From Streptomyces sp. NBC_01235 (lineage in GTDB: Bacteria; Actinomycetota; Actinomycetes; Streptomycetales; Streptomycetaceae), in contig NZ_CP108513.1 in the NCBI RefSeq assembly GCF_035989285.1, positions 1,364,001 to 1,428,000 on the forward strand: 64,000 nucleotides of DNA, in the 5' to 3' direction. Below, piece by piece: positions 1,619-64,000 of the stretch. How positions within the stretch are numbered: the first letter of the stretch is position 1; every line of letters starts with the position of its first letter. A model generated the notes under the pieces. That model saw only the letters and a program-made list of their open reading frames with translations, was not told the origin of the DNA and ran no database searches. Both the position numbers and the translations under genes were made by a program.

Positions 1619-1804
1619 GTCAGGACAGCAAAGTCCACGAACTTCAGAGATACATCAAAGTCCGCTCAGAGCACGATCGGAAAAGGAACCGAGGGATCAT
1701 CCCTGTGCCATCATGACGAGGACAGCAGGTGATCCCGTCTTCCTCGATTCCGCGGGCAGATCTCGACAACAATGGGTTCTTACCGACTTCATGGTGCGCA
1801 CACG

Positions 1805-2530: not shown

Positions 2531-2531
2531 G

Positions 2532-11557: not shown

Positions 11558-14440
11558 ATGCTGCTCGAGCGGCAGAACGAACTGAAAGAGGCGGCCGAGG
11601 CCCTTCGGCTCGCGGCACATGGCAACGGATCCATGGTCGTGATCAGCGGACAGCCCGGAAGCGGCAAGTCGGCCGTTCTGTCGGAGATCGGCGAACTCGC
11701 CGCCGGTCTGGCCACCGGCCCGACGGCCGGGTCGGTGGTGCCCAGCCGCCCCCTGGTGATGCGTGCCTACGCCGCCCCCTCGGAGCGCTCCTTCTCCCTC
11801 GGTGTCACCCGGCAGCTGCTGGAACCGGTGCTCAAGTCGGGTGCGTTCGCCGGCAGATGGTGCTCGGGACCCGCCCGGCCCGCGCTCGCCTTCCTCCAGG
11901 GCGACCCGGAGTCGCCCCGGCAGCACACCGCGACGACGGTACGCGCCCTGCTGGCCATGGTGGAGAACATGAGCCAGGAGCGCACACCGGTCCTGCTCAT
12001 CGACGATCTGCACTGGGCGGACGAGGGCACACTGGACTGGCTGGACCAGTTGGTGCAGCAGGTGCCCCATCGGGGCATCCTGGTCGCGGCGACCGTCTGC
12101 GAGGGAGAACCCGCGGCGGAGCCGCCCGGTGTGCGTCCGGTCGCCGCCGCCAAGCACATGCTGTTCCCGGCCCCGCTGGGCACGGCGTCGGTCGACGCCC
12201 TGATCCTGGAGCGCCTGGGCGTGCCGGCCGACGCGGAGTTCACCTCCGCGTGTCACGACGTCACGCGCGGTAATCCGCTGCACCTCGTGTCGCTTCTGCA
12301 GGAATGCCAGTCCCGCGGCATCGCCCCGGTGGCGGCCGAGGCGTCCAGAGTGGCCACGCTGGTGCCGCCCGCGCTGCGCCGGCGACTGCTGCTGTGTCTT
12401 CAGGAACAGCCGCCGTCCGTGCTGGCCGCGGCCCGTGCGCTGCAGGTCCTCGGGGACGGTGCCGATCCGCAGGTGGTGGGTGAGCTGGCCGGACTGGACC
12501 GGGTGGACCGCGAGGCCGGTCTCTGGCGGCTGCGCCGGCTGACGCTGGTCGTCCGTCAGGGCACCACCCTCGCCCTGGCCCATCGGGCGGTGCACGAGGT
12601 GATCGAGGACGCCATGCCACCGGGCGAACGCAACCGGCTGCACCTGAAGGCCGCCGCGCTGCTGCGCTACCGGGGCAGCACGCCCGAACGGGTGGCCGGC
12701 CATCTCCTCGCCACCACCGCCCCGCTGGACGACGACTCGGTGGCGGCGCTGCGCCACGCCGCCGAGGCGGCAACGCTGCGCGGCGCCCCCGAGACGGCGG
12801 CGCGATATGTGCGCCGGGCGCTGCGCGACGTACCGCCGCACAGCGAGGAGCGGGCCATGTTGCTCGTGGAACTGGCGTCCGTGGAGCGCAGTTTCGCACC
12901 GTCGGTGGCGGTCAGGCACATCACCCAGGCGTTCCCGCTGCTGGCCTCGGCCCGGGCCCGGGCCGAGGCGCTGCTGACGCTGACCCCGATGGCGGCCGGT
13001 GCCACGCTGCTGTCGCTGGGCGACGCGATGCGGCAGACGACACAGGAGCTGACCGCCACGGAGGCACGGCCGGCCGACCGGCGGCTGCTGGAACTGCGGC
13101 TGGAGGCCCGGCTGCACCATCTCTGCGACATCGATCCGTCGGTGCTCGCGTCGGCCGCGGACCGCCTGACCGGGCTGGGCGGACGGCCGGAGATGACGCA
13201 CGCAGGCCAGCGTGAGCTGCTGGTGGCCCTGATGTACACGGTGACGGTGTCTGCGGCGCTGCCCGCCGCGCAGGTCAGGAGACTCGCGGCCCGGGTGCTG
13301 GAACACGAGCCGGCGCGCGCGGCCCATGTGCACACCATGCTGCCGCTGGTGGTGCCGGTATCGGTCACCGCCGACTCCGTCACGGGACTGATGTCCTGGC
13401 TGGACACGGCCCTGGCCGACGCGGAGCGCCGGGGCGGACGGCTGGAGCAGTCGGTGGTGCTCAGTGAGCAGGCGCTGGTCCTGCTCGCCCAGGGCAGGCT
13501 GTCGGCCGCGCGGGAACGGGCGGTGCGGGCCTGCTCGGTGATCGGCCCGCAGGAGGCGAGCACGCTCTCGCTCATCGCCCTGGCCATGGTGGCGCTGCGC
13601 ACCCGCGAGCCGGAACTGGTCGACGGGCTGCCGGAGCGCATCCGCGGCGCGCACGAGAACTGCGTGCTGGCCGGGCTGCTCACCATGGTGCGGGGCATGA
13701 AGGCCGAACGGCGGCACGAGCCGGCCATGGCCGTGGAGCACTTCCTCGACGCCGAGTACGCCCTGGAGCGGGCCGGTTGGCGCAATCCGGTGCTGGCGCC
13801 GTCGGCGTACTGGGCGGCACGCACCTTGCACCGCGTGGGCGAGGCCGAGCGGGCCGAGCAGCTGTGCGAGCAGCACCTCGAGCAGGCGCGGGCCTGGGGT
13901 GCCCCGTCGGGTCTGGGCCGTGCGCTGGCGCTCCAGGCGGCCGTGACGGACGCGGCCTCGGCGCCGAGGCTGCTGCGGGAGGCCGCCGGCGTGCTGGAGG
14001 GCTCCGCCGATCTCCTCACGCGGGCGTCGGTTCTGCTGCGGCTCGCTGAGGCGGTGGCACCCCGCCATGCCGCGGAGGCGGAGGCGGCGCTGCGCACGTC
14101 GTACGAGTTGGCGGTGGACTGTGGAGCCTCTCGGATCGCGGCCCGCGCGCAGGAGATGCTGGGGCCGGCGGCGGTGGGTGTCCCGACGCGGGGGCGGCTG
14201 ACGTCGGCGGAGCGGATGGTGGCGCAGATGGCCGTGGAGGGCCTGACCAATCAGGCCATCGCCGACGCGCTCGGCGTCTCCCGGCGGGCAGTGGAGAAAC
14301 ATCTGACGAACTGCTACCGCAAGATCTCGACGTCCGGCCGTTCCGGGCTCGCGAGCGCGCTCGAGGATGCGGGCCTGTTCGAGCCGACGGGCGTGTCGGC
14401 TCCGCCCGCCGAAACGATCCGCCCCCAGGGAGCGGCGTGA
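11558..14440 (+). CDS. LAL-family (large LuxR) transcriptional regulator
   Basis: A 960-residue LAL regulator. The N terminus has LLERQNELKEA and then a canonical P-loop GQPGSGKSA; unlike the two genes before it, the Lys is retained. The Walker-B segment is PVLLIDDLHWADEGT. The long middle is helical and TPR-like. The C-terminal LuxR HTH (~residues 885-940) contains LTSAERMVAQMAVEGLTNQ and VSRRAVEKHLTNCYRKI. It is the last gene of the three-gene LAL run and converges on the thioesterase gene. It is a likely pathway-specific activator of the PKS and tailoring genes, and its canonical P-loop makes it the best candidate in the trio for ATP-dependent activation. Confidence 0.9.
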   Translation: MLLERQNELKEAAEALRLAAHGNGSMVVISGQPGSGKSAVLSEIGELAAGLATGPTAGSVVPSRPLVMRAYAAPSERSFSLGVTRQLLEPVLKSGAFAGRWCSGPARPALAFLQGDPESPRQHTATTVRALLAMVENMSQERTPVLLIDDLHWADEGTLDWLDQLVQQVPHRGILVAATVCEGEPAAEPPGVRPVAAAKHMLFPAPLGTASVDALILERLGVPADAEFTSACHDVTRGNPLHLVSLLQECQSRGIAPVAAEASRVATLVPPALRRRLLLCLQEQPPSVLAAARALQVLGDGADPQVVGELAGLDRVDREAGLWRLRRLTLVVRQGTTLALAHRAVHEVIEDAMPPGERNRLHLKAAALLRYRGSTPERVAGHLLATTAPLDDDSVAALRHAAEAATLRGAPETAARYVRRALRDVPPHSEERAMLLVELASVERSFAPSVAVRHITQAFPLLASARARAEALLTLTPMAAGATLLSLGDAMRQTTQELTATEARPADRRLLELRLEARLHHLCDIDPSVLASAADRLTGLGGRPEMTHAGQRELLVALMYTVTVSAALPAAQVRRLAARVLEHEPARAAHVHTMLPLVVPVSVTADSVTGLMSWLDTALADAERRGGRLEQSVVLSEQALVLLAQGRLSAARERAVRACSVIGPQEASTLSLIALAMVALRTREPELVDGLPERIRGAHENCVLAGLLTMVRGMKAERRHEPAMAVEHFLDAEYALERAGWRNPVLAPSAYWAARTLHRVGEAERAEQLCEQHLEQARAWGAPSGLGRALALQAAVTDAASAPRLLREAAGVLEGSADLLTRASVLLRLAEAVAPRHAAEAEAALRTSYELAVDCGASRIAARAQEMLGPAAVGVPTRGRLTSAERMVAQMAVEGLTNQAIADALGVSRRAVEKHLTNCYRKISTSGRSGLASALEDAGLFEPTGVSAPPAETIRPQGAA

Positions 14441-14491
14441 GCGCGGGGCGGGTCGTGGGCGGCGGGCGATCGCGCGGACGGGGGGCGCCGG

Positions 14492-15262
14492 TCAGGTGTC
14501 CTGGAGCGCGGCCTGTGCGGTGAAGTGCTCGTCGAGCACCTTCAGCACGTCCGCGGCACGGCTGTTGAGGTAGAAGTGGCCGCCGGGCATGACCCGCAGG
14601 TCGAAGTCCGCGGTGGTGTGCTTCTCCCAGTCCTGGGCCTCGTCGACGGATGTCTTGGGGTCGCTGTCGCCGACGAGCACGGTGACCGGGCAGCCCACCG
14701 TGGCGCCCGGAGCGCACCGGTAGGTCTCCACGGCCCGGTAGTCGCCGCGGAGCGCCGGCAGGATCATGCGGATCAGTTCCTCGTCCCCCAGCAGCCGGTC
14801 GTCGGTGCCGCTCATCGACTTGATCTCGGCGATGATGCCGTCGTCGTCACGGCGGTGGACGTTCTCGTCGCGGTAGCGGGAAGGAGCGCGCCGGCCCGAG
14901 GCGAACAGCCGTACCGGGCCACTGCCCTCGCGCTCGAACCGCCGGGCGGCCTCGAAGGCGACGAGCGCGCCCATGCTGTGCCCGAAGAAGGTCAGCGGGC
15001 GGTCGTCCCAGCCACGCAGGACCTGGTGCACCTGGTCCGCGAGGGTGCCGATGTCGTCGATCAGCGGCTCGTTGCGCCGGTCCTGACGGCCGGGGTACTG
15101 CACGGCGACGACGTCGACGCGCGGGCTGAGCGCGGTGGCCACGGGAAGGTAGTAGCTGGCCGAGCCGCCGGCGTGGGGGAAGCAGACCAGGCGGTGGGCG
15201 GCCTCGGGAGCCGGGTCGAACCGCCGGCACCACAGGCCGTCGTCTGCGGGGGATGCACTCAC
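14492..15262 (-). CDS. type II thioesterase
   Basis: A 256-residue alpha/beta-hydrolase of the PKS/NRPS-associated type II thioesterase family. The catalytic triad is visible: Ser96 in FGHSMGAL, Asp201 in GDSDP and His229 in PGGHFYLN. The N-terminal LVCFPHAGGSASYY oxyanion segment and the QYPGRQDR segment are also typical. These discrete enzymes hydrolyse aberrant or stalled acyl groups from carrier proteins. Here, with no TE domain at the end of the PKS, it could also take part in product release, but that is inference. The start is GTG at 15262. It is transcribed divergently from the phosphoesterase gene and convergently with the third LAL gene. Confidence 0.92.
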   Translation of the reverse strand: MSASPADDGLWCRRFDPAPEAAHRLVCFPHAGGSASYYLPVATALSPRVDVVAVQYPGRQDRRNEPLIDDIGTLADQVHQVLRGWDDRPLTFFGHSMGALVAFEAARRFEREGSGPVRLFASGRRAPSRYRDENVHRRDDDGIIAEIKSMSGTDDRLLGDEELIRMILPALRGDYRAVETYRCAPGATVGCPVTVLVGDSDPKTSVDEAQDWEKHTTADFDLRVMPGGHFYLNSRAADVLKVLDEHFTAQAALQDT

Positions 15263-15553
15263 GCTGTTCGTCCGTCCTCTGTCAGGGGATTGCGGTGGTC
15301 TGGATCACTGGCGTGCTCCTACGGGTGTGCCGCAACTATCCGGCACCGCCGGGCCGTGCAGGCCCTCGCGGCCCGAAGTCTGGTCGTTTCCCCCGTACTT
15401 GCCTCCGCGGGGCGGCTGTGCGTTGTGCGGCGGGAGGGCGCGGTGGCATAAAGCTGAGCGCCGGACGCGCATCCGAGGCGCCCGCCCCCAGCGAGGAGCT
15501 CCCATGCCCACCACCACGGATCCACGGCCCGCGACGGGCGAAGCACGAAAGCG
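15263..15553. promoter_or_regulatory. divergent promoter region, thioesterase / phosphoesterase-PPTase
   Basis: A 291-bp gap between divergent genes. On the plus strand, TTGTGC at 15423-15428 and CATAAA at 15447-15452, spaced 18 bases apart, form a plausible promoter for the phosphoesterase-PPTase pair. I see no equally good minus-strand element for the thioesterase. Confidence 0.35.
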
Positions 15554-16405
15554 GTGAGCGGTGTCCCGGGCAGCAGGCTCTACGCGGTCAGTGACCTGCA
15601 CGTCGCCTACGAGCAGAACCGCGCCGTGGTGCGACGGCTGCGCCCCTGCGATCCCTCCGACTGGCTGATCGTCGCCGGGGACATCGGGGAGCTGACGGCG
15701 GACGTCGAGTGGGTGCTGGGGCTGCTCGCGGAGCGGTTCGCGACCGTGGTGTGGGTGCCGGGCAACCACGAGCTGTGGACGCACCCCGACGATCCGGTGC
15801 CGCTGCGCGGTGAGGCCCGCTACCGCAGTCTGGTCGAACTGTGCCGGTCGCTCGGGGTGCTGACCCCGGAGGACCCGTACGTCCAGTGGCCCGGCCCGGA
15901 CGGGCCGGTGGTGATCGCGCCGCTGTTCCTGCTCTACGACTACTCGTTCCTGCCGCCGGGCGCCACCGGCACCGCCGATGCGCTGGCCCGGGCGGAGAAG
16001 GCGGGGGTGGTGGCCACCGACGAATTCCTCCTGCACAGCGACCCCTACCCGGACCGGGCGGCCTGGTGCCGGGCCCGGGTGGCGTACACCCGCGGGCGGC
16101 TGGACGCCTGTCCGCCCGACCTGCCGACCGTGCTGGTGAACCACTTCCCGCTGGTCCGCGAGCCCACCCGCATCCTGCGGTACCCGGAGTTCGCGCTGTG
16201 GTGCGGGACCACCGCCACCCACGACTGGCACCGGCGCTACCGGGCGGCCACCGTCGTCTACGGCCATCTGCACATCCCCCGCACCACCTGGCACGACGGG
16301 GTACCGCACCGTGAGGTGTCGCTGGGCTACCCGCGCGAGTGGCAGGCCCGCGGCATGCCCGATCCGTTGCTGCGCGAGATCCTGCCCCGGCGAGGTGCCC
16401 GATGA
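15554..16405 (+). CDS. calcineurin-like metallophosphoesterase
   Basis: A 283-residue member of the calcineurin-like phosphoesterase fold. The metal-binding motifs appear in order: SDLHVAY (D-x-H), AGDIGEL (GD), PGNHELW (GNHE), VNHFPL and YGHLHIPRT (GHxH). No signal peptide is seen, so it is probably cytosolic. It overlaps the phosphopantetheinyl transferase start by four bases (ATGA), so the two are translationally coupled. The substrate is unknown. A role connected with carrier-protein or CoA metabolism is suggested only by the coupling. The start is GTG at 15554, since the first motif begins about ten residues later. Confidence 0.87.
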   Translation: MSGVPGSRLYAVSDLHVAYEQNRAVVRRLRPCDPSDWLIVAGDIGELTADVEWVLGLLAERFATVVWVPGNHELWTHPDDPVPLRGEARYRSLVELCRSLGVLTPEDPYVQWPGPDGPVVIAPLFLLYDYSFLPPGATGTADALARAEKAGVVATDEFLLHSDPYPDRAAWCRARVAYTRGRLDACPPDLPTVLVNHFPLVREPTRILRYPEFALWCGTTATHDWHRRYRAATVVYGHLHIPRTTWHDGVPHREVSLGYPREWQARGMPDPLLREILPRRGAR

Positions 16406-17160
16406 CGTCGCTGATGCGCCGCCTGCTGCCGGACACGGTCGAAGTGACGGAGGTGCGCGGGGAGTTGTCCGCACCGCCGCTGTTCCCGGAGGAGCAGGCG
16501 GTGGTGGCGCGGGCCGTGGACGGGCGCCGGCGCGAGTTCGCCACCGGGAGGCGGTGCGCCCGTCTGTCGCTGGCCGCGCTGGGGCTTGCGGCGCAACCGC
16601 TGCTGCCCGGCCCGCAAGGAGAGCCCCGCTGGCCCGCCGGGGTGGTCGGTGCGATGTCCCACTGCGACGGCTACCGGGTGGCGGCGGTGGCCCGCGCCAC
16701 CGATCTGGCGGCGCTCGGCGTCGACGCCGAGACGGCGGCCCGCCTCCCGGACGGCGTCCTGGAGGCGGTGTCGCTGCCCGAGGAGCGCGCCGACCTCGCC
16801 CGGCTGGGGCGAACGGCACCGGAAGTGCCCTGGGACCGGCTGCTGTTCAGCGCGAAGGAATCGGTCTACAAGGTGTGGTTCCCGCTCGCCCGCCGGCCGC
16901 TCGGGTTCGAGGAGGCGCGGCTGCGCTTCACCCGGGAGCGGGACGTCGCCGGCGCGGTGTGCGGCAGGTTCGAGGTCAGGCTGCTGGTGCCGGTTCCCGC
17001 GGAGTTCTCGGGTCCGGTCGGCGGCGCCGGGCTCACCGGACGGTGGCTGGTCGACGAGGGGCTGGTGCTGACCGCGCTGGCACCCGTCGTGCGCCGGGCC
17101 GGTGACGGACCGGACTCCTTCGAGCCGGCCGGCCGGGCCGCGGTCCGGCACCCGGGGTGA
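16402..17160 (+). CDS. Sfp/Svp-type 4'-phosphopantetheinyl transferase
   Basis: A 252-residue transferase that converts apo-ACPs to the holo form using CoA. Motifs: a basic GRRREFATGRRCAR segment, then MSHCDGY, then the Mg-binding GVDAE with D108 and E110, and the signature FSAKESVYKVWFP at 149-161 with E153. This spacing fits the broad-specificity Sfp/Svp class used by PKS and NRPS systems. The ATG at 16402 overlaps the upstream stop; longer in-frame starts would run into the phosphoesterase gene. Given the many ACPs in the neighbouring PKSs, it is the likely cluster-dedicated activating enzyme. Confidence 0.92.
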   Translation: MTSLMRRLLPDTVEVTEVRGELSAPPLFPEEQAVVARAVDGRRREFATGRRCARLSLAALGLAAQPLLPGPQGEPRWPAGVVGAMSHCDGYRVAAVARATDLAALGVDAETAARLPDGVLEAVSLPEERADLARLGRTAPEVPWDRLLFSAKESVYKVWFPLARRPLGFEEARLRFTRERDVAGAVCGRFEVRLLVPVPAEFSGPVGGAGLTGRWLVDEGLVLTALAPVVRRAGDGPDSFEPAGRAAVRHPG

Positions 17161-17267: not shown

Positions 17268-18752
17268 ATGCCCCAGCTCAACACGACCGGTCCCGAGTCC
17301 CACACCGATGCGGTCCTCGCCGCGCGGCTGGCCGTCTCCGCGACGGCCAGCGGCGGCGAGGCGATGTCCGACGTCGAGTTCTTCGACTGGTTCGACCGGC
17401 GCCGCCGCACACACAGCCAGGAGGTGCGCCGCAGCACCTTCGCCGAGATGTCCGGCTGGGACTTCGTCCCGGACACCGGTGATCTGGCGCATCGCAGCGG
17501 GCGGTTCTTCACCGTGCGCGGCATGCGGGTGCGCACCGACTTCGGTCCGGTGCCGGAGTGGACCCAGCCGATCATCCGGCAGCCGGAGATAGGCATCCTC
17601 GGTCTCGCGGTCCGCGAGACCAACGGAGTGCTGCACTGCCTGATGCAGGCCAAGTCCGAGCCGGGCAATGTCAACGGGGTGCAGCTGTCGCCGACCGTGC
17701 AGGCCACCAAGAGCAACTACACCAGGGTGCACGGTGGTGCGTCGGTGCCCTATCTGGACTGCTTCCGGGAGCCGGAGGCACGGGGTCACCGTGTGCTGGC
17801 CGATGTGCTCCAGTCCGAGCAGGGCTCGTGGTTCTTCTGCAAGCGCAACCGCAACATGATCGTGGAGGTCGGCCCGGAGGTGGAGGCGGACGAGGACTTC
17901 TGCTGGTTGACCCTTCGTCAGGTCAATGCGCTGCTGCACTACGAGAACCTGGTCAACATGGACGCGCGTACGGTGCTGTCCTGCCTGCCGGACTGGCACC
18001 ACGGCGCCGGCCCGGCCACCGGCGTCCACTCGGACGTGGCGATCCGCAGCTGGATCACCACACAGCAGAGCGAACGGGAGGCCAGCGCCTCCCTGTTGCC
18101 GCTGCGCGAGGTCGAGGGACGCGACTGGTACCGCGCCGAGGACCGTATCTCCCACGAGCGGGGCCTGTTCTTCAGCATCGTGCCGGTGGACGTCCTGTCC
18201 AACCGGCGTGAGGTGACTTCCTGGTCGCAGCCGCTGCTCGAACCGCACGGCGTCGGGGTGGTGGCGATGCTGGTGCGCCGGATCGACGGCGTGCCGCACT
18301 GTCTGGTGCAGGCCCGGGTCGAGCCGGGCTATCTGGACGTCGTCGAACTCGGCCCCACCGTGCAGTGCACCCCGGAGAACTACGCCCATCTGCCGACGTC
18401 GGCCCGACCCCGCTTCCTCGACCTGGTGACGGAGGCCCGTCCGGAACAGGTGCTGTTCGACACGGTGCTGTCGGAGGAGGGCGGCCGGTTCCTGAACGCG
18501 CAGAACCGGTACCTGATCATCGAGGCGGACGACGGCGTCCCCGCCGAGGTCCCGGGCGACTACCGCTGGGTGACCCTGCGCCAGCTCGGGGAGCTGCTGA
18601 AGTACAGCCACTACGTCAATGTGCAGGCGCGGACGCTGGTCGCGGCCCTGCGCAGCGTCACGGGGGTCTCGACCGGCCTGCCCCTGGCGGGCGTGCAGGG
18701 TGGCGGGGCGGTTTCGGCCGGAGAGGGGGGCGGCCGTGCAGATCATCGGTGA
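17268..18752 (+). CDS. NDP-hexose 2,3-dehydratase
   Basis: A 494-residue enzyme of the family that removes the C-2 hydroxyl from NDP-4-keto-6-deoxyhexose, the entry step to 2-deoxy and 2,3-dideoxy sugars. The protein is an internal duplication, typical of this family. The half at ~60-240 has FFTVRGMRVRT, LHCLMQAK, PGNVNGVQLSPTVQ and WLTLRQVNALL. The half at ~290-465 has FFSIVPVDV, PHCLVQAR, PGYLDVVELGPTVQ and WVTLRQLGELL. GGAGAGG at 17256-17262 supports the ATG. It overlaps the ketoreductase gene by 17 nt. The partner 3-ketoreductase, the 4,6-dehydratase and any glycosyltransferase are not in the window. Confidence 0.92.
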   Translation: MPQLNTTGPESHTDAVLAARLAVSATASGGEAMSDVEFFDWFDRRRRTHSQEVRRSTFAEMSGWDFVPDTGDLAHRSGRFFTVRGMRVRTDFGPVPEWTQPIIRQPEIGILGLAVRETNGVLHCLMQAKSEPGNVNGVQLSPTVQATKSNYTRVHGGASVPYLDCFREPEARGHRVLADVLQSEQGSWFFCKRNRNMIVEVGPEVEADEDFCWLTLRQVNALLHYENLVNMDARTVLSCLPDWHHGAGPATGVHSDVAIRSWITTQQSEREASASLLPLREVEGRDWYRAEDRISHERGLFFSIVPVDVLSNRREVTSWSQPLLEPHGVGVVAMLVRRIDGVPHCLVQARVEPGYLDVVELGPTVQCTPENYAHLPTSARPRFLDLVTEARPEQVLFDTVLSEEGGRFLNAQNRYLIIEADDGVPAEVPGDYRWVTLRQLGELLKYSHYVNVQARTLVAALRSVTGVSTGLPLAGVQGGGAVSAGEGGGRADHR

Positions 18753-21396: not shown

Positions 21397-22443
21397 TCAG
21401 CCCTGGGCCCACTCCGGGATCTCCAGGACGGTCAGGACGGCCGAGGTGGAGACCCAGCCGGCCGCCGACGTCGTCATCAGGATGTTGTCGCCCGGGGACA
21501 CCAGCCCGTTGACGAGCAGGTGGTTGAGGGAAACCGCCATGTCGCAGGCGCCCATGTGCCCGTACTCCTTGCCGAAGTGGGCGGTGGAGCGCGACATCGG
21601 CAGGCCCAACGGCTGCATCTTCGTCTGCTCGACCATGAGGGAGTCGCTGTTCGCGGCGACCACCCATCGCAGATCCGACGCGTTCAGCCCCGCGTCCACC
21701 AGCGAGCGGTGCACCAGGTCCAGCTCGAAGTCCCGGATCATCTCCATGCACTTGTCGAGCGGCATCACGTGCTGGTTGAAGTACATCAGCAGGTCCAGCG
21801 TGCCGGAGGCCTTGCGCTCCTCCCCGCGGAACGGCAGCAGTGACTCCTCTCCCCGGTGCCACTGCTCCAGCTCCGGCATGGTGCCGGAGTTCACCGCCCG
21901 TAGCGCCGCGAACCCGCCCTCGCGGCTGAGCAGGACGGCGGCGCCGCCGTCGCTGGCGGTGAAGCCGGTGCCGAAGCCGCGCCACCGGTCGATCAGCGGG
22001 CTGGTGAAGTTCTCCGCCGCCGTCACCAGCGCGGTCTCGGCGCCCGCGGCTCCCGTCAGCTGTCCGACGGCGACCTCGATGCCGGCCAGCAGCCCGTTGG
22101 AGTGCTGGCGCACGTCCGTGCTCGCCACTCCGCTCGCGCCGAGCTCACGCAGCAGGTAACCGGGCGGGTAGAACCCCTCGGGGCCGTGCTGGACGGCGGT
22201 GCAGTGCACATGGAAGTCGAGGTCGTCGACCTCGTTGCCGGACCGCCGGAACGCGTTCCGGGCGGCGAGCACGGCCATGTCCAGCGCGGGCAGGTCCCCC
22301 GCGATGTAGGCGGTGGTGAGCCCGGTCGCGTACTGGATGGAGAAGTCGTCGTAGAGGCCTTGCTCGACGGCCTCCTCGACGGTCACCCGCTGCTCAGGGA
22401 TGTAGACCCCGACCGTGTCGACATAGACGCCGTTCGTCTTCAT
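21397..22443 (-). CDS. KAS III-like acyltransferase with Ser in place of the catalytic Cys
   Basis: A 348-residue thiolase-fold protein of the FabH/KAS III superfamily. The nucleophile position, normally Cys in a C-x-G context, reads DVRQHSNG with Ser115. The usual H-Q-A-N segment is replaced by AANSDS (~264-269), and the region of the third catalytic residue reads YGHMGACD. Condensation activity is therefore unlikely, whereas acyl transfer is plausible. Known relatives with altered active sites include DpsC (Ser, starter-unit selection) and CerJ-type proteins (acyl transfer to sugars). It is the last gene of the PKS operon, 82 bp after a terminal PKS that lacks a TE domain, with AAGGAG upstream. 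Candidate roles are chain release or transfer, starter selection, or acylation of the deoxysugar. Confidence 0.85.
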   Translation of the reverse strand: MKTNGVYVDTVGVYIPEQRVTVEEAVEQGLYDDFSIQYATGLTTAYIAGDLPALDMAVLAARNAFRRSGNEVDDLDFHVHCTAVQHGPEGFYPPGYLLRELGASGVASTDVRQHSNGLLAGIEVAVGQLTGAAGAETALVTAAENFTSPLIDRWRGFGTGFTASDGGAAVLLSREGGFAALRAVNSGTMPELEQWHRGEESLLPFRGEERKASGTLDLLMYFNQHVMPLDKCMEMIRDFELDLVHRSLVDAGLNASDLRWVVAANSDSLMVEQTKMQPLGLPMSRSTAHFGKEYGHMGACDMAVSLNHLLVNGLVSPGDNILMTTSAAGWVSTSAVLTVLEIPEWAQG

Positions 22444-22525: not shown

Positions 22526-25500
22526 TCACCTGCGCAGCAGTTCTTCCTTGAGACGGGTCACCAGCAGTACGGGCGTGTCGGCCTCGAACAGCAGGGCGGC
22601 GGGCAGTCGGAGCCCGGTGGTCTCGCGCAGCCGGTTGCGCAGGGCGAAGGCGGTGAGCGAGTTGAGGCCGATGTCGCGGAAGGCACGGGTGTCCTCGACG
22701 GCTTCCGGCGAGGAGTAGTCGAGCACCGCCGCCACGTCGGTGCGCACGAGGTCCAGGAGGGCGGCGTCGCGCTCGGCGTCGGCCAGCCCGGCGAGGCGGC
22801 GCCGGAGCATGCTGAGGGCGCCCGCGGCTCCCGGCCGGCCCGCCCGGCGCCGGGCCGGTGGTCCGGCCAGGCCCCGCAGCGGCGCGGGCAGGCTCGCGTC
22901 GCCCGACCTGCCGAGGAGCGTCCCGGTGTCCGGGCGGAGCAGGACGGCGGTGGGGGCCTGCGCTGCGCACGCGGCGTCGAACAGGTCCCGGCACGCGGTC
23001 CGGGTCAGCCGGCCGATCCCAGCAGGCGCGGCGCTCGCGGCGCGGTCCTGGCCGTCCCAGGGTCCCCAGGCCATCGACAGCCCGGGCAGGCCCTCGGCAT
23101 GGCGGCGCCGGGCCAGGGCGTCGAGGAAGGCGCCCACGGCGGCCTCGTCGCCCCGTCCCGCCGCCCCCAGCGTGCCGGCGGCGGACGAGAGGAGGACCAG
23201 GGGCACCGCGGCGGGCCCGGACCGGCCGGGCGCCGTCAGCTCGGCGAGGTGCAGGACCGCCCGCAGCTCCGCCTCCAGCGGCTCGTCGTCCGCGTCCGCC
23301 GGGCCGTCGGTCTCCCGGCGCTGCGGCACCTGGGCCGCGTGCACGACTGCGGTCAGCGGGTGCCCGGCGGGCACCGCGGCCAGGAGCGCGGCCGGTGCCC
23401 CCGGCGAGGCCGGGTCGCACTCGGTGACGGTCACCTCGGCTCCCCGCTCGCTCAGTTCCGCCGCGAGCCGGGCGAGCTCGTCTCCCCGCGCCGGGGCTCC
23501 GAGCAGCAGACGGCGTACGTCTCCCCGGTCCGCCAGGTGCCGGGCGATCTCGGCGCCGGCCGGCCGGTCGGCGCCGGTGACCAGGACGGTCCCTTCCGGG
23601 TCGATCGGCAGCCCCGCCCCGTCGGTGATGGCGGGGACGGCGGCCAGCCGTGGAACGCGCACGGTGCCCTGGACCAGGGCCAGTTGGGGTTCGGGGAGGG
23701 CCAGCGCCGCCGGCAGGGCGCGCCAGGAGGCGCGCTTGCCGTCCAGATCGGCCAGGACCAGCCGGTCCGGGTCGGCCGACTGGGCGGACCGGATCAGGCC
23801 CCAGACCGCGGCGACCGCCGGGTCCGGCGCCCGGGTGCCGTCGTCGGCGAGCGAGCCGCGGGTCAGGACGACGAGCCGCGCGTCGGCGAACCGGTCGTCG
23901 GAGAGCCACTCCCCCGCCAGTCCGGCGACGTCCCGCACCGCGGTCGCACCGGTGGTGTCCCCGGGCGCGGGCACACAGCCGGTCAGGACCGCCTCGGGCA
24001 CGGCCGCGCCGGAGTCCAGCGTCTTGGCGAGCGCGGTGAGGCTGTCGTAGGTCTCGGTGTAGACGCCCGCCTTCATCAGCGCCGCGCGAGCGCCGAGCGG
24101 ATCGGGTCCGACGAGCGCCCAGCGGGGCTTCTCCGCGGGCGCCGGGCACCCGGTCTCGGGCCAAGCGAGACGGAAGAGCGGACCGTGTTGTGCGGTGCGG
24201 GCGCCGGTGAGCCGTGCCGGGTCGGCTGCCCCGAGCCGTATCCCGCCGACCGACGCGACGGGCCGTCCCGTGTCGTCGGCAGCCTCCACGGCGATGGTGT
24301 CGGTCCCGGTACGGGTCAGCCGGACCCGCAACGACGAGGCGCCGACGGCGTGCAGCGCCACCCCGTGCCAGATGTCCGGCAGGTGCGGCGCGTCGGCGCC
24401 GGGGGTCTCCCCCGTGAGGGTGAGGGTGCGCAGCGCGGTGTCCAGCAGCGCCGGGTGCAGGCAGTAGGCGGCGCCCTGCGGCCGCTGTTCGGCGGTCAGA
24501 GCGACCTCGGCGAACAGGTCGTCGCCGTGCCGCCACAGGCCGCGCAGGCCCTCGCCGGCCGGCACGGGCAGGTCGGCGGGCTCGGCGTCGGCGGGCGGCC
24601 AGAGTTCCAGGTCGAAGGCGGCCGGACCGTCCGCGGGGCACAGCACCGCCCGGGCGTGGCGCGTCCAGGGCGTGCCGGGCAGGGCGCCCGCGCGCCGGGA
24701 GTGCACCCGCAGGAGTCGTTCCCCCGACGGCTCCGCATCGCCGACCGTGACCCGCAGCCGGATCTCGTCCCGTTCGGGCAGGACCAGGGGATCCTCCGAG
24801 GTCAGCTCGACGACGTGGTCGCACCCGACCCGTTCGCCGGCCTGGAGGGCGAGTTCGACGAGCACCGTCCCGGGCACGGCCTGCGGGGCGGCCCCGGCGT
24901 GGGAGGCCGGCCACTGCTGTGCGGCGCGGGACAGCGTGCCGGTCAGCACAAGCCCGCCCGGCTCGGGCAGTTCGACGACCGAGTCCAGCAGCGGGTGCCG
25001 GTCCGCCGGACCCGTGGTGGCCGCGTCCGCGCCGGAGTGCGGTGCGGCCGCCATCCAGTAGTGACGGCGGTGGAAGGCGTACGTGGGCAGCGGGATCCGG
25101 CGTGCCCCGGTGGGCGCCAGCACGGTGTTCCAGCGGACGTCGACGCCCCGGACGTGCAGCTGCGCGAGGAGGGTCACGAGGTCGAGCCCGTCCGGGCCGG
25201 TGAGCGGCAGCAGGTCCGCGCGCGCGTCGGGCTCGGCGCCGCCGGGAAGGGAATGGCCGTCCCCGTCCGGCTCGCCGAGGACGACCAGCGTGCGGTGGCC
25301 GCTGTCCAGCAGCGCTCGCAGCGCCTGCCCGGGCCGGCCGGGATCCCGCGCCAGACCGGCGGCCCACTGGGCGGCGCCGGTCTCCTCGCCGTCCAGCCAG
25401 CCACCGGTCGCGGCCGACCAGAACGGCGTGCCGGCGGGCGTGAAGCCGACCTGTGGCGCGGGCTCGTCCGTCGTCCGGCCGTGGTGCACCGCGAGCCGGG

Positions 25501-28500
25501 CGCCGGCTTCGAGCGGGAGCAGTCCGGCGGCGCAGGCCGCCGCGATCTCACCGTCGCTCCGGCCGGTCACGGCCGCGGGCTCGATGCCGTACGAGCGCAG
25601 CAGTTCGGTCACCGCGACGGCCACCGCCCAGCCGAGCGGTCCGGCGATCTCCGGCCGGTGCCGCCAGTCGGGGGCGGTGCGTCCCGCGAGGACGTCGGCG
25701 GGGGTCCAGTCGACCAGCCCGGACAGGGCGCGTCCGCAGGCTTCCAGTGCTTCGGCGAACACGGGGGCGGAGTCGGCCAGCGGTGCGGCGCTCGCCGTCC
25801 ACCGGGCGTCGGCGGCCGGGAAGGCGAGGACGAGGGCGGGCTGTGCGGAGCCGGCCGGGGCGGTGCCGCTGACGACCGGGGCGTCGGGCTCGGTCCCGTC
25901 CGCCAGGGCCTTCAGGGTGCGCAGCGCCGTGTCGTGGTCGGGGACGGTGAGCACCGCGCGGTGTTCCAGGGCGGAGCGGGTGGTGGCGAGCGACAGGGCC
26001 ACGTCCGCCAGCCTCGTCGCCGGTTCGTCCGTCAGGAACGCGTGCAGGCGGGCCGCCTGGCCGCGCAGTGCCTCGGCGCCGCGCGCGGAGAGCGGCAGCG
26101 GCAGCGGCAGCGGCAGCGGCATGCCGCCGGGCGGCTTCGGAGCCCCGGTCCGGGCGTCGTCGGCGGTCCGGGCATCGACAGGGGTGTCGGTACCGCCGAT
26201 GGCGTCTTCCCCGTCCCGGGGCGGCTCTTCGATGATCACGTGGGCATTGGTGCCGCTGATGCCGAAGGAGGACACGCCGGCCCGGCGCGGGCGGTCGCCG
26301 GGCGGCCAGGCCACGTCCTCGCGCAGCAGCTCCACCACGCCCGCGGACCAGTCGACGTGCGGGGAGGGCGGGTCGGTGTGCGGGGTGCGGGGCAGGACGC
26401 CGTACCGCATCGCCATGATCATCTTGATGACCCCGCCGGCGCCGGAGGCCGCCTGGGTGTGACCGATGTTGGCCTTCATCGAGCCCAGCCACAGCGGCCG
26501 CTCACGGTCCTGCCCGTAGGTGGCGAGGACCGCCTGCGCCTCGATCGGGTCGCCGAGCGGGGTGCCCGTGCCATGGGCCTCGACGGCGTCCACGTCGGCG
26601 GTGGCGAGTCCGGCGGAGCGCAGCACCTGGCGGATCAGACGCTGTTGGGCGGGTCCGCTGGGGGCGGTCAGTCCGTTGGAGGCACCGTCCTGGTTGATGC
26701 CGCTGCCGGCGATCCGGGCGAGGACGGTGTGGCCGCGCCGCCGGGCGTCGGAGAGCCGCTCCAGGAGCAGCAGGCCGACGCCCTCGGCCCAGTTGGTGCC
26801 GTCGGCGCCGGCCGAGAACGGCTTGCACCGGCCGTCGGCGGCCAGGGTGCGCTCCCGGCTGAAGGCCAGGTAGGGGTCCGGCTGCGACATGACCGCCACA
26901 CCGCCGGCGAGCGCCAGGTCGCACTCCCCGGCGCGCAGGGCCTGCGCCGCCAGGTGCAGGGCGACCAGGGAGGACGAGCAGGCGGTGTCCACCGCCACCG
27001 AGGGACCTTCGAGACCGAAGGCGTACGACACCCGGCCCGCGGCCACGTTGCCGGCCGTCCCCATCTGCATCCCGGACGCGTAGTCGTGATAGGTCACGCC
27101 CGCGAACACGCCGGTGCGGCTGCCCTTGAGGGAGGTGGGGGCGATCCCGGCCCGTTCGAACACCTCCCAGGAGGTCTCCAGCAGCAGTCTCTGCTGCGGG
27201 TCCATGGTGAGCGCCTCGCGGGGCGAGATACCGAAGAGCTCGGCGTCGAACTCGCCCGAGTCGTAGAGGAATCCGGCTTCGCGGACATAGGTGGTGCCGG
27301 GACGGTCGGAGTCCGGGTCGTACAGCGCGTCGAGGTCCCAGCCGCGGTCGGCGGGAAACGGGCCCAGTCCCTCGGCTCCCGCGGCGACCAGGCGCCACAG
27401 CGCCTCGGGCGAGTCGGCCCCGCCGGGGAAACGGCAGCCCATGCCGACGATCACCACGGGGTCGTCGTCGGGCCCGGCGGTGTCGAGGCGGGCGGGGGCG
27501 TCCTCGTCCTCGGTCTGCTCCCCGTCCAGGCCCAGTTCCGTGGCCAGGTGCCGGATCAGGGCGCCGCAGGTGGGGTGGTCGTAGACGAGGGTGGCGGGCA
27601 GGCGCAGTCCGGTCTCCTGCCCGAGCCGGTTGCGCAGGTTCACGGCGGCGAGCGAGTCGAAGCCCAGTTCCTTGAACGGTTTGTCGGAGCCCACGAGGTC
27701 GGCGCTGTCGTAACCGAGGATCGCGGCGACCTGGCCGGTGACGAGCTCGGCCACCGCGCGGTGCCGCCGGGCCCGGGGCAGGGAGACGAGCCGCCGGGCG
27801 AATCCGCCGCCCTCGCCGGTCGCGCCCGCCGCGCCGCGCCGGACGGTGACGCGCAGCAGTCCGCGCAGCAGCGGGGGCAGTTCACCGGCTTCGGCGCGCG
27901 AGCGCAGGGCGCGCTGGTCGAGACGCATCGCGAGCAGCAGCGCCCGGTCGGCGGCGGTGCCGGCGTCGAACAGGGACAGGCCCCGCTCCGCGGAGAGGGG
28001 GATGACGCCCTGGGCGGCCGTTCTGGCCGTGTGGGCGGGGTCCAGGGCGGCTGTCATGCCGCCGAACCGCTCCCACGGCCCCCACGCGAGTGAGGTCGTG
28101 GGCAGTCCTGCCGCGCGGCGGTGCTGGGCGAGGGCGTCGAGGAAGGTGTTGGCGGCCGCGTAGGTGGCCTGGCCTGGATTGCCGAGCAGGCCGGCCGCCG
28201 ACGAGAACACCACGAAGGCGGAGAGGTTCTGCTGCCGGGTCAGCTCGTGCAGGTGGGCGGCGGCGGTGGCCTTGGCGTCGAAGACGGTGGCCAGGCGCTC
28301 CGGCGTGAGCGAGGTGAGCAGGCCGTCGTCGAGCACACCGGCGGTGTGCACCACCGCGGTGACCGGGTGCTCGACCGGGACGGCGGCGAGGAGGGCGGCC
28401 AGCGCCGCGCGGTCGGAGACGTCGCACGCCTCGACCGTCACCTCGGCGCCGAGCTCGGTCAGTGCGTCGCGCAGCCCGGCCGCGCCCGCGGCCCGGGGCC

Positions 28501-31500
28501 CGGACCGGCTGACCAGCAGCAGCCGCCGTACGCCGTGTTCGGCCACCAGATGCCGGGCGGTCAGGGCGCCCAGCCCGCCGGTGCCGCCGGTGATCAGCAC
28601 GGTCCCTTCGGGTCCGAACGCCGGCGGCGTTCCTTCGGCGGGACGCGGCGCGCGGACGGCCCTGGGCGTCAGCAACGCATCGCCGCGGACGGCGAGTTGG
28701 GGCTCCTCGCCCTGGAGGGCGGACAGGGGCGGGGAGTGGGGCGTGTCACGGTCGACGAGCAGGAAGCGGCCGGGGTGCTCCGACTGGGCCGTGCGCACGA
28801 GCCCCCAGACGGGGGCGTGGACGAGGTCGGGTACACGGTCCTCGGGTGCGGCCGCCACGGCGTGGCAGGTGAGCACCACCAGCCGGGAGCCGTCGAGCCG
28901 CTCGTCGGCCAGCCACTGCTGGAGGGCGGCCAGGACGGCCGCGGTGGCGTCCTGGGCCGCGGCGGCGAGGCCCGGACCGTCGTCGGGGTGGCCGGCGGAG
29001 GCGACCGGCAGCAGCACGGTCGTGGGCGCCGGCGTGCCCTCGTCCAGGGCGGCCCGCAGCGCGGCGAGGTCGTGGTGGACGCGGACGGGGACACCCCGCT
29101 CGGCGAGGCGGGCGGCAAGGGCCGCGCCCTCCGGGGCGAGCACCGCCCACTCGCCGCCCTCGCCCACCGCGAGCCCCGGGTCGGCGGCCTGACCGGCCAC
29201 CGGCGCCCACTCCAGCACGTACAGTCCGTCGGCCCGCCGATCGGCGGCCGGCGCGGAGTCGGCGGAGAAGGTCAGGGAGACGGAGTCGACGGTGGCCAGC
29301 GGCAGCCCGTGGGTGTCCGCCAGGGCGAGCGAGACGCGGTCGGTGCCCGCGCCCGTGACGCGCAGCCGGGCGGCGCCCGCTCCGGTCGCGTGCACGGTCA
29401 CGCCGTGCCAGCCCCGCGGCAGTACGACGCGGCCCTCGCCCGCCTCGGGCGCGGCCCACAGGACGGTCTGCAGCGCGGCGTCGAGCAGCACGGGATGCAG
29501 GCCGAAGGCGGCGGCACTTCCCTCGCGCGGCCCCTCCGGGACGGCGAGCTCGGCGAAGAGGTCACCGCCGCGGCGCCACAGGGCGCGTACCGCGCGGAAG
29601 GCCGGGCCGCGTGAGTGGCCGCGCAGGGCCAGCAGGTCGTACAGGTCGTCCACGTCGACGGGTTCGGCCTGCTCGGGTGGCCAGACGTCGGTCTCCGGCG
29701 GGTCCGAGGCGGGCTGGGCGGTGGTGGTGGAGAGGATGCCCTCGGCATGGCAGCGCCATGGCTGGTCGCCGTCCTCGTCGTCCGGGCGGGAGTGGACCGT
29801 CACCGTGCGCCGTCCCGTGTCGTCCGCGGCTCCGACCAGGATCTGCATCCGCACCCCGCCCTGTGGGGGCAGCGGGAGCGGCTCACGGAGGGTCAGCGTC
29901 TCCAGGGCGGTACAGCCGGCCTCGTCACCCGCCCGCACGGCCAGTTCGACGAGGACGGACTCGGGCAGCAGCGCGATGCCCGCCACCTCCCGGTCGGCGA
30001 GCCAGGAGTGCGAGCGCACGGACAGCCGGCCGGTGAGGAGCACGCCACCGGCGTCGGCGAGTTCGACGGTGGCGCCGAGCAGCGGGTGCCGCGCGGCCCC
30101 GAGGCCGGCGGCACGGATCCCGGCGGCGCCGGACGCCGTGCCGGGCAGCCAGGCGCGACGCCGCTGGAAGGCGTAGGTGGGCAGCGCTTCCGGCGGTGGG
30201 GCGGGGGTGTCCGGGTCCGTGCCCCTGCCCTTGCCCGTACCCGTGCCTGTGAGGAGGCCGGTCCAGTCGACGTCGGCGCCACGGGTGTGCAGGGCGGCGA
30301 GGGCGGTCTCGAAGGCACGAGGTCCGGGCTGGTCCTTGTGCAGGGCCGGAACGGCGAGCACCTCGTCCTGGGCCGGCAGGCTCTGCGCCGCGAGGGCGGA
30401 CAGGGTGCCGTCGGGGCCGAGTTCCAGACAGCGGGTGACGCCGAGGCCGGCCAGGGTACGGACGCCGTCGGAGAAGCGGACCGCGTGCCGGACGTGCCGC
30501 ACCCAGTAGTCGGGGGTGGCCAGGTCGTCGGGGTCGGCCGGGCGGCCGGTGAGGTCGGACACGATGGTCAGGCGCGGCGGGTGGAACTCCAACGACTCGG
30601 CGATCCGCCGGAAGTCGCGCAGCATCGGTTCCATCAGGGGCGAGTGGAAGGCGTGGCTCACCCGGAGGGCGGTGGCACGGTGGCCGTTCGCCCTGGCCTG
30701 TTCCGCGATCTCCTCGACGTCGGCGGCGACGCCGGCGATCACCGTGGCGCGGGGCGCGTTGACGGCGGCGACACCGACCCGGTCGGTGCGCCCCTCCAGC
30801 AGGGGCAGCACCTCGGCCTCGGGGAGCTGGAGGGAGAGCATGGCGCCGCCCTCGGGGAGCGCCTGCATCAGCCGGCCGCGGGCCACCACCAGCCGGCAGG
30901 CGTCGGCGAGGGACCAGACCCCCGCCACATACGCTGCCGCCAACTCGCCGATGGAGTGCCCGAGGAGTACGTCGGGACGTACGCCGAAGGACTCGGCGAG
31001 CCGGAACAGGGCGACTTCCAGGGCGAACAGCGCGGGCTGCGCGTACCCGGTGCGGTTCAGCAGGTCGGCGTCCGTGCCGAACACCACGTCCTGCAAGGGG
31101 CGTTCGAGGGTGGTGTCGACCTGGGCGCACACCTCGTCGAAGGCGTCCGCGAACACCTCGTACGTCTCGTGCAGTTCCCGTCCCATGCCGAGGCGCTGGG
31201 AGCCCTGCCCGGCGAAGAGGAAAGCGGTCCGGCCGCTTCCCGAGGCCGAGCCGGTGACCAGGCCGGGCCGGGCGTGGCCGGCGGCCAGGGCGTCCAGGCC
31301 GCGCAACAGTTCGTCGCGGTCGGTGCCGAGCACCACGGCGCGTTCCTCGAACACGGACCGGGTGGTCAGCAGCGCGGCGGCGGTGCGCGCCGGGTCCGTC
31401 GCCGGGCGGACACGTACGAAGTCGGCGAGCCGCCGGGCCTGGTCGCGCAGGGCGGCGAGGGTACGGCCGGTGACCCTCCAGGGCACCGCCCCGGACGGCA

Positions 31501-32935
31501 GGCGCAGGGCCTGCGGCACGGGACCGTGCGTGCCGGGGTCTGCGCCGGGCTCGTCCGGGGCCTGTTCCAGCACGACGTGGGCATTGGTGCCGGAGACGCC
31601 GAAGGCGGACACCCCCGCCCGGCGCGGACGGTCCGCCGGCTGCGGCCAGTCGGTGTTCTCCTGGACCAGCCCGACGGCACCGGCCGTCCAGTCCACGCGG
31701 GTGGTGGGCTCGCCGGCGTGCAGGGTGCGCGGGAGCAGGCCGTGGTGCATCGCCAGCACCATCTTGATCACACCCGCCACCCCGGCAGCGGCCTGGGTGT
31801 GCCCGATGTTCGACTTCACCGACCCCAGCCACAAAGGCCGTTCACGGTCCTGGCCGTACGTCGCGATCAACGCCTGCGCCTCGATCGGATCACCCAGCGC
31901 CGTACCCGTGCCATGCGCCTCCACCGCGTCGACATCGGCCGGCGCAAGTCCACCGGCCGCCAACGCGGCCCGGATCACCCGCTGCTGGGAAGGACCGTTC
32001 GGAGCCGTCAGACCATTCGACGCACCGTCCTGGTTGACCGCGCTCCCCCGCACCACCGCCAGCACCCGATGACCATGACGCCGCGCATCCGACAGCCGCT
32101 CCACCACCAGCACACCGACACCCTCACCCCACCCCGTACCGTCCGCACCCTCCGCGAACGCCTTGCACCGGCCGTCCACCGCAAGCCCCCGCTGCCGCGA
32201 GAACTCCACGAACGCCCCCGGCGTCGACATCACCGTCACCCCACCCGCCAGCGCCAGATCACACTCACCACCCCGCAGCGCCTGCACCGCCAGATGCAAG
32301 GCGACCAGGGAGGACGAGCAGGCGGTGTCCACCGTCACCGCGGGGCCTTCCAGCCCCAGCACGTACGACACCCGCCCCGACAGCACCGACGCGGTGATGC
32401 CGGTGGTCAGATGGCCGTCGGACTCCTCGGGCCGGTCGAGCATGAGCGCGAGGTAGTCCTGGCCGTTGGTACCGGTGAACACGCCGGTACGGCTGCCGCG
32501 CAGCGCGCCCGGGTCGATGCCCGCACGTTCCAGTGCCGCCCAGGACGTCTCCAGCAGCAGCCGCTGCTGGGGGTCCATGGTCGTGGCCTCTCGGGGCGAT
32601 ATGTCGAAGAACGTGGAGTCGAACAGTGGTGCGTCGTAGAGGAACGCTCCCTGGCGGGCGTACGTGGTGCCGACGCCGCCCGCCGCGTCGAAGACGCCGT
32701 CGAGGTCCCAGCCGCGGTCGGCGGGGAAGTCGGCGACGGTGTCCCGGCCCTCGGTGAGCAGCCGCCAGAACTCCTCGGGCGTGTCCGCACCGCCGGGAAA
32801 GCGGCAGCCCAGACCGACGATCGCGACGGGCTCCTGGCGACTCGTCTCGACGTCATGAAGACGCTTGCGGGTCTGGCGGAGGTCCGCCGTCACCCTTTTC
32901 AGGTAGTCCCGCAGCTTCTCTTCATTGCTCGCCAT
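22526..32935 (-). CDS. terminal modular type I PKS, two modules, no TE
   Basis: A 3469-residue PKS. Domain order: N-terminal coiled-coil docking segment (1-33, [12 protein letters not shown] start); KS (34-458); AT (569-869); DH (949-1223); KR (1444-1640); ACP (1726-1803); KS (1826-2246); remnant AT (2359-2626); remnant DH (2648-2910); remnant KR (3112-3306); ACP-like (3392-3466). It ends a few residues after the last ACP, with no C-terminal docking helix and no thioesterase, reductase or condensation domain. This makes it the end of the line, but without a built-in release step. It starts 57 bp after the previous PKS stop, with GAGGAAG as ribosome binding site. The first module should add a malonyl unit and reduce it to a hydroxyl; the second appears unable to complete an extension. 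Confidence 0.93.
22540..27460 (-). other. degenerate terminal PKS module KS-AT*-DH*-KR*-ACP*
   Basis: Second module of the terminal PKS. KS keeps Cys (VDTACSSSL), AHGTGT and NIGHTQAA, so it could still accept a chain. The AT has no GQGSQ, reads GRSDGE for GHSxGE, lacks the HAFH region and is about 100 residues short. The DH reads HxxxAxxxxP, with DTALR for D-x-A-L-H/Q. In the KR, the cofactor motif is TGADRPAG and the YxxxN active site has become E and G. The ACP has GLNSL where GFDSL is standard; the Ser is kept. All of this is read directly from the sequence. Loss of extension and reduction is inferred. Confidence 0.88.
26091..26120 (-). repeat. five-copy hexamer repeat encoding Pro-Leu dipeptides
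   Basis: Five exact copies of AGCGGC on the plus strand, giving alternating Pro-Leu on the coding strand. It sits in the KS-to-AT linker of the degenerate module. Slippage expansion in a region under weak selection is the simplest explanation. Confidence 0.8.
27530..32835 (-). other. PKS module KS-AT-DH(inactive)-KR-ACP, malonyl
   Basis: First module of the terminal PKS. KS has [15 protein letters not shown] and [10 protein letters not shown] has GQGSQ, GHSIGE and HAFH (30643-30654), which indicates malonyl-CoA. DH has RxxxGxxxxP where HxxxGxxxxP is needed (Arg codon 29990-29992), although the DAALQ aspartate remains, so dehydration should fail. KR has GGTGGLG, the LDD signature of B-type reduction, and the Ser/Tyr/Asn catalytic residues. 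ACP has LGFDSL. Predicted outcome: a beta-hydroxyl. Confidence 0.85.

Positions 32936-32992: not shown

Positions 32993-49468
<16,476 letters not shown>

Positions 49469-49544: not shown

Positions 49545-64000
<14,456 letters not shown>

Follow-up and report, generated by a model that had tools for sequence, protein, structure and literature searches.

The second of two adjoining polyketide synthase (PKS) lines in Streptomyces sp. NBC_01235 ends in a hollow module, module 8, whose ketosynthase (KS8) and acyl carrier protein (ACP8) are kept and whose acyltransferase (AT), dehydratase (DH) and ketoreductase (KR) are dead; the gene that follows encodes a KASIII-like acyltransferase. The hollow module is real and is conserved across orthologous copies. 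In the reading that we favour, and regard as somewhat probable, KS8 and ACP8 relay the finished chain of this line (line B) to the KASIII-like enzyme, which would esterify it to the product of the other line (line A). The DNA analysed, called the window below, is the 64,000-nt stretch G000:C1:1364001-1428000 of a genome that is a single contig of 11.09 Mb. An earlier note on this DNA had drawn attention to the intact KS; the unit to study is the trio of KS8, ACP8 and KASIII.

Module 8 and its orthologs

The last PKS gene of line B encodes a 3469-aa protein of two modules, 7 and 8. Module 8 (residues 1825-3469, window about 27463-22529) runs from KS through remnants of AT, DH, the structural half of the KR (psi-KR) and KR to ACP, and then nothing. 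In the window copy KS8 has DTACSS, HGTGT and NIGH, thus the Cys and both His that the earlier note had reported. AT8 has neither the small subdomain nor HAFH, and the claim of that note that the AT motifs are lost is right for these and wrong for the AT Ser, which survives in GRSDGE. The DH8 motif is broken, KR8 reads TGADRPAG where TGGTGxxG is expected and DEAAVG in the Tyr stretch, and ACP8 has IGLNSL in place of LGFDSL, with the phosphopantetheine Ser present. From these motifs module 8 alone is predicted to be unable to select an extender or to reduce. An AlphaFold2 model of KS8-AT8 had a mean pLDDT of 49; its KS part was unusable, and comparison was possible for the AT remnant only.

Genome contigs were scanned with the post-KS region, giving 21 loci. 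Twelve (L009-L020) come from eleven genomes and are orthologs of module 8, with 49-82% identity in their best segment. Identity is lower, 33-38%, in the remaining nine (L021-L029), none of which has a KASIII gene of the type found here. The orthologs were compared together with the window copy and L073 (genome G030); in this set 13 copies have KS sequence and 12 have ACP sequence. Contig ends truncate L016, L017 and L019, of which the last two come from different contigs of a single genome and were kept separate; L020 has N in module 7, and L011 is in the residue comparison and outside the dN/dS pairs used below.

The KS Cys and both His are present in all 13 copies. Missing from all 13 are the AT His segment with the small subdomain and the KR Tyr and Lys; the AT Ser is gone in 10 (retained in the window copy, L012 and L073), and the KR NADPH motif in 12, its glycines being kept in L073 (VGSAGSLG). 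The DH motif is variable, with HxxxGxxxxP still matched in three copies (L014, L015 and L073). The ACP Ser is kept and the adjoining motif has changed from Asp to Asn (IGLNSL) in 12 of 12. Judging by its motifs, L073 seems to represent decay at an earlier stage. A protein search gave 1723 matches, of which 120 were listed; the 20 of these with at least 59% identity were examined, and all 20 have the KS triad, the AT deletion, a lost KR Tyr and IGLNSL, their strains partly overlapping the locus set. The pattern of an intact KS and degraded neighbors, which the earlier note had proposed to look for in orthologous clusters, is therefore kept in the orthologs found, except that its description of every post-KS domain as degraded fits AT, DH and KR and not the strongly conserved ACP.

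Two ortholog proteins, P0058 and P0059, have additional C-terminal residues beyond ACP8, ending in TTKENNHS and TTKENNHR.

Selection on the domains

We estimated dN/dS by NG86 with a codon bootstrap, pooled over four chosen pairs that are only roughly independent (window copy [WIN]-L013, L015-L020, L009-L010 and L012-L014). NG86 is blind to strong third-position G+C bias, hence the ranking alone was used. KS8 has the lowest value of the 13 stretches compared, 0.154 (95% confidence interval 0.119-0.195), and ACP8 has 0.196 (0.112-0.329), against 0.467 (0.367-0.595) for AT8, 0.570 (0.459-0.705) for DH8, 0.423 (0.321-0.551) for psi-KR8 and 0.451 (0.372-0.549) for KR8. The corresponding values in module 7 are 0.215 (KS), 0.266 (AT), 0.446 (DH), 0.444 (psi-KR), 0.324 (KR) and 0.373 (ACP). 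KS8 was lower than KS7 in 96% of bootstraps and ACP8 lower than ACP7, likewise in 96%; AT8 exceeded AT7 in >99%, KR8 exceeded KR7 in 98%, and DH8 exceeded DH7, which itself lacks the His, in 94%. A second set of 9 close and 16 far pairs ranked KS8 and ACP8 against AT8, DH8 and KR8 identically. By these estimates the dead domains of module 8 are relaxed yet not neutral, as a scaffold would be.

In the module 8 alignment the stretch between KS and ACP has 96 distinct gap intervals, the KS has 5 and the ACP 1, and all are in frame. Because all 96 KS-to-ACP intervals keep the frame, module 8 is taken to be under constraint. The open frame over 5 kb, which the earlier note had offered as evidence of constraint, is uninformative, since the antisense frame across the same 1645 codons is likewise free of stops, at 77% G+C. 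Its main claim, that the KS is retained because it has a function, is borne out by the low dN/dS and by the orthologs; relaxation of the KS equal to that of the other domains was looked for and is not seen. A neutral pseudogene was rejected on the dN/dS values and the conservation.

Specialisation of KS8

A tree was made of 38 KSs from the cluster, the orthologs and L074 that were found by a search pattern, which missed some cluster KSs and those of L073, L077 and L079. The 11 module-8 KSs in it form one clade, and each of them has a deletion of about 11 residues between the DY and xGR motifs, which none of the other 27 shares. The deletion is also in all 20 examined database proteins and, by eye, in L073. 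Among PDB chains KS8 is nearest to DEBS KSs (608 bits), relative to which 9-10 residues are missing, and scores 434 bits with CalA3. To judge from the clade and its deletion, KS8 is specialised. Non-elongating KS0 domains of trans-AT PKSs have lost the His of HGTGT; that KS8 is such a domain was rejected, HGTGT being present in 13 of 13 copies.

The KASIII-like acyltransferase and the terminal ACP

The window KASIII has a fold closest to ChlB3, CerJ and DpsC, with ChlB3 and CerJ nearer than, or as near as, DpsC, and is predicted to transfer acyl groups to a hydroxyl or a carrier. Fifty-two homologs were listed and 43 aligned. The nucleophile is Ser (Ser115 in the window enzyme, which thus lacks the nucleophilic Cys of the ChlB3/CerJ type) in all 16 relatives at >=64% identity and Cys in all 28 at <=53%; the pair corresponding to His296 and Asp301 of ChlB3 is retained in 44 of 44.

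Three overlapping genome searches (394, 392 and 394 genomes) found Ser-type KASIII in 10 genomes, several already among the ortholog strains, and in 9 of the 10 the ACP just upstream reads IGLNSL. Cys-type KASIII of 42-53% identity was found in 14 genomes 189-293 bases past a terminal-ACP motif, which is GFDSL in all 14; the ACPs preceding the remoter Cys-type L067 and L070 (34-35% identity) read GMDSL. For further Cys-type loci the upstream 1.5 kb alone was inspected, and the other 18 (including L091, 48% identity) have no ACP in that stretch.

Longer sequence at five Cys-type loci (L074, L077, L079, L110 and L111) has the KS, AT, KR Tyr and ACP motifs and no thioesterase (TE); two more Cys-type PKS ends, L108 and the short L078, are readable in part only. 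These working terminal modules, for which the earlier note had asked as a refutation, occur only beside the distant Cys-type enzymes and speak for ancestry and not against a retained role. We had considered that terminal modules beside Cys-type KASIII are intact throughout, and rejected this, L075 and L076 being hollow: both encode an AMP-ligase, a DH remnant, a psi-KR and an ACP, with a KR without Tyr (L075) or no KR match (L076), and neither has a KS or AT. By these domain contents the hollow ACP dock ahead of a KASIII gene exists in two forms, one with a KS and a Ser-type enzyme and one KS-less with a Cys-type enzyme.

In genome G577 a Cys-type KASIII of the same score lies near both chromosome ends (L090 and L100; 67620-68651, minus, and 9736663-9737694, plus), as if the cluster were in terminal inverted repeats.

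Two lines and one integral thioesterase

The two PKS lines adjoin one another in a single cluster of the source genome. Line A (about 1444840-1559236) has a KSQ loader (DSAQSSS) at its start and a C-terminal TE at its end. Line B (1386526-1436092) also opens with a KSQ loader of its own (DAGQSSS), which is situated outside the window (G000:C1 up to 1436092), and continues with four DH-ER-KR modules, a DH-KR module, a KR module, module 7 and hollow module 8. The TE of line A is the only integral one in the two lines, and line B has none. Module 8 is thus the last module of line B, as the earlier note held of the assembly line, and not the end of the whole cluster, of which line B is the second line.

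The ATs of line B carry motifs that we take to be malonyl-type, and because of these the chain is predicted to start from acetyl and to be extended with malonyl seven times, to a length of roughly C16; 3,5-dihydroxyhexadec-6-enoyl would be an example. The DH of module 7 (window about 29270-30090, minus) also lacks the catalytic His, and therefore module 7 probably leaves a hydroxyl.

Of 10 genomes with the hollow module, 9 have an ortholog of the line A TE (70-97% identity), and in G000, G030 and G495 the gene is on the same contig as the KASIII gene, 58-122 kb away. In G489, which has a Cys-type KASIII, a 64% identical TE ends one PKS, and immediately after it come a second PKS (AMP-ligase and two modules) and then KASIII. 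The locus concerned (L111, 3-17324) encodes a macrolide-type PKS and is likewise arranged in two lines, of which the second is short.

Table 1. Features of the cluster and of two related loci; locations are window positions unless a locus is named
Feature	Location	Strand	Remark
KS8	26228..27460	-	intact Cys-His-His
AT8 remnant	25130..25834	-	
DH8 remnant	24230..24997	-	
psi-KR8	23642..24181	-	structural half
KR8 remnant	22913..23602	-	NADPH motif, Lys and Tyr gone
ACP8	22535..22771	-	IGLNSL; Ser retained, Asp to Asn; no thioesterase after
Last PKS gene of line B	22526..32935	-	module 7 (KS-AT-DH without His-KR-ACP) and hollow module 8
KASIII-like acyltransferase	21397..22443	-	Ser115-His296-Asp301; 82 bases after the PKS gene
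Line B PKS, modules 4-6	32993..49468	-	DH-ER-KR, DH-KR, KR
Line B PKS, modules 1-3	49545..63998	-	DH-ER-KR in each
Discrete (type II) thioesterase	14492..15262	-	
Phosphopantetheinyl transferase	16339..17160	+	
NDP-hexose 2,3-dehydratase	17268..18752	+	deoxysugar pathway
KS-less hollow module, L075 (G017)	12720-16898		directly before Cys-type KASIII
KS-less hollow module, L076 (G344)	12302-16480		directly before Cys-type KASIII

Release of the line B chain

Line B would build an acyl side chain to which module 8 adds no extension. The finished chain would move from ACP7 to the Cys of KS8, which would hand it to ACP8, with the AT, DH and KR remnants acting as scaffold only. The Ser-nucleophile KASIII would then dock on ACP8, accept the chain on Ser115 and transfer it to a hydroxyl of the line A product, a TE-released and probably glycosylated polyketide, so that release would be ester formation between two polyketides. 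Holding or transferring the chain, the role that the earlier note had suggested for the KS, is still the best guess for KS8; ACP8 is kept as strictly, and the adjoining KASIII, which belongs to the same conserved unit, is the likelier transferase.

Several points weigh against this relay. Both KS8 His are retained, though plain transacylation should not require the decarboxylation His. No line A TE ortholog was found in genome G394. The Ser-type KASIII of G673 has no ACP upstream, and 3.9 Mb separate it from the TE ortholog. The coupled appearance of Ser in KASIII and Asn in the ACP is one event in the tree, and thus an association without a statistic. A Ser nucleophile is also not trivially active: CerJ C116S is reported to be inactive, and the Ser of DpsC is described as sitting in a different residue set (PMC9573744).

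The G673 exception to the pairing (L106 and L107, with KASIII at G673:C1:5671895-5672956) has the motif NSDG and a PKS neighborhood, and the hollow-module ACP was not found among the matches in that genome (best 53%).

The strongest alternative, in our opinion unlikely, is that module 8 still extends, ACP8 being loaded in trans by AT7 or by a free malonyl transferase, and that a beta-ketoacyl chain longer by two carbons is released without reduction by the KASIII-like enzyme. Extension would account for the invariance of both KS8 His and for a dN/dS of KS8 as low as that of working KSs, but the AT is lost in every copy, no trans-AT gene is seen in the scanned genes (which are part of the cluster genes), and KS8 carries its own deletion. 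Moreover, CalA3 is described as having the same triad yet performing no condensation (PMC10006239).

It is improbable that KS8 itself makes the releasing bond, with ACP8 and KASIII acting in another step. The model for this is CalA3, of calcimycin chain release, a terminal KS-AT-DH-KR in which, as described, only the Cys-His-His KS works, releasing the chain, and the remaining, dead domains form a lid (PMC10006239); the clade-specific deletion in KS8 would also agree with this. CalA3 as described has no ACP, whereas ACP8 is strictly retained; KS8 is far nearer to the DEBS KSs than to CalA3; and in relatives KASIII comes directly after the terminal ACP, twice without any KS.

More doubtful is the idea that KASIII, like the starter-selecting enzyme DpsC, charges ACP8 with a special acyl unit and that KS8 joins this unit to the chain. 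DpsC, according to the account in PMC9573744, has a Ser nucleophile and a similar fold, but its residues are given there as Ser-His-His, whereas the His-Asp pair of ChlB3 and CerJ is universal among the homologs aligned here; ChlB3 and CerJ are nearer or equally near in fold, and line B would remain without a release step. Finally, that module 8 is decaying without a role and its frame is open by chance is hardly credible: the dead domains do differ between strains and the frame is uninformative, but KS8 and ACP8 are more constrained than their module 7 counterparts and the pattern is fixed in all copies and in all the database proteins examined.

Hydrolysis by the discrete thioesterase in the window was set aside though possible, the conservation test having covered the KASIII gene only.

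Relation to known systems

The relay by KS8, ACP8 and KASIII would be a known kind of system in altered form, with CalA3, described as having no ACP, the closest hollow module. CalA3 shares with module 8 the intact KS triad and the AT, DH and KR reduced to an inactive scaffold; it differs, on the published description, in being free-standing and in releasing by formation of a C-N bond (amide), module 8 being fused to module 7, with a conserved ACP and a KASIII partner (PMC10006239). Module 8 is partly CalA3-like and not a member of the CalA3 type, and release by KS8 in the manner of CalA3 would be a minor rival to the relay.

For two lines the nearest parallel is mycolactone, where a FabH-like enzyme is reported to be essential for production and is the proposed linker of core and side chain (PMC2569948, PMC11678992). 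The likeness to MlsA, MlsB and the FabH-like MUP045 was drawn from descriptions, with no mycolactone sequences compared, and those descriptions, so far as used here, mention no hollow module. The cluster analysed here also has two modular lines, each with its own loader, a FabH-like gene and a TE on the core line, and by analogy an ester between the line A and line B polyketides, in the mycolactone manner, would be its product. In the PM100117/PM100118 cluster (GonP8; KSIII genes gonS1 and gonS2) a macrolide is likewise accompanied by a second small PKS whose product KSIII is thought to help attach; the unit described there is a naphthoquinone, the module is ordinary and the KSIII role is only suggested (PMC4763440). 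ChlB3 and CerJ, as reported, have a catalytic Cys where the window enzyme has Ser115, and handle small acyl groups; DpsC combines its Ser with His-His, and the window KASIII with His-Asp (PMC9573744). Module skipping in engineered PKSs (cited in PMC6718629) likewise lets a chain cross a module without extension, but is presented as an engineering by-product, whereas here, if our reading is right, a line naturally ends in this state, which is fixed.

If the relay is true, module 8 is a natural and evolutionarily stable module reduced to chain transfer. The less decayed L073, the KS-less L075 and L076, and the intact-motif L074, L077, L079, L110 and L111 are material for comparison, with which the needs of a KS for passing a chain on unextended, and the replacement of a thioesterase by a KASIII that also joins two lines, become testable. 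A clean hand-off module would be useful for polyketide engineering, and the pattern points to a group of Streptomyces clusters that probably make two-chain esters, products of a class that we did not find described for them.

A broader scenario is offered tentatively, as possible and short of probable. It sees a TE-free release device, in which a hollowed module of KS and Asn-type ACP is the loading dock for a dedicated Ser-KASIII that joins two polyketides. The ancestors would have had a Cys-type KASIII and a terminal module that worked; on a single branch KASIII would have gone from Cys to Ser and the ACP from Asp to Asn, the KS would have undergone its deletion, and AT and KR would have decayed. 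A second, KS-less dock (ligase, remnants and ACP) would have arisen in the Cys-type branch.

Other searches and neighboring genes

No description of this cluster, or of a hollow module paired with a KASIII gene, was found in the open-access literature at the title and abstract level, and a search of a plasmid collection gave partial PKS matches with no record reaching 80% query coverage. Release as a tetronate goes with FkbH-like glyceryl transfer genes, and release as a polyether with an epoxidase and an epoxide hydrolase; none of these was among the Pfam-scanned genes, which are part of the cluster genes.

The window also encodes an ABC transporter. Around both lines are P450s, a reductase, an aldo-keto reductase and a nucleotidyl transferase, and frames for a ferredoxin, a 4,6-dehydratase and a glycosyltransferase were recognised nearby by eye. 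A calcineurin-like phosphoesterase gene overlaps the frame of the phosphopantetheinyl transferase (window 15554-17160, plus); the two might, speculatively, be a pair acting on carrier proteins. The cluster is flanked (window 1772-11489, plus) by two frames for histidine kinases, by a response regulator and by two large ATPase regulators, of which one carries a LuxR-type domain. Beyond the window, at about G000:C1 1539430-1539460, the line A frames 1539429-1546307 and 1531150-1539459 break inside one AT, which is either a break in the gene or an assembly error.

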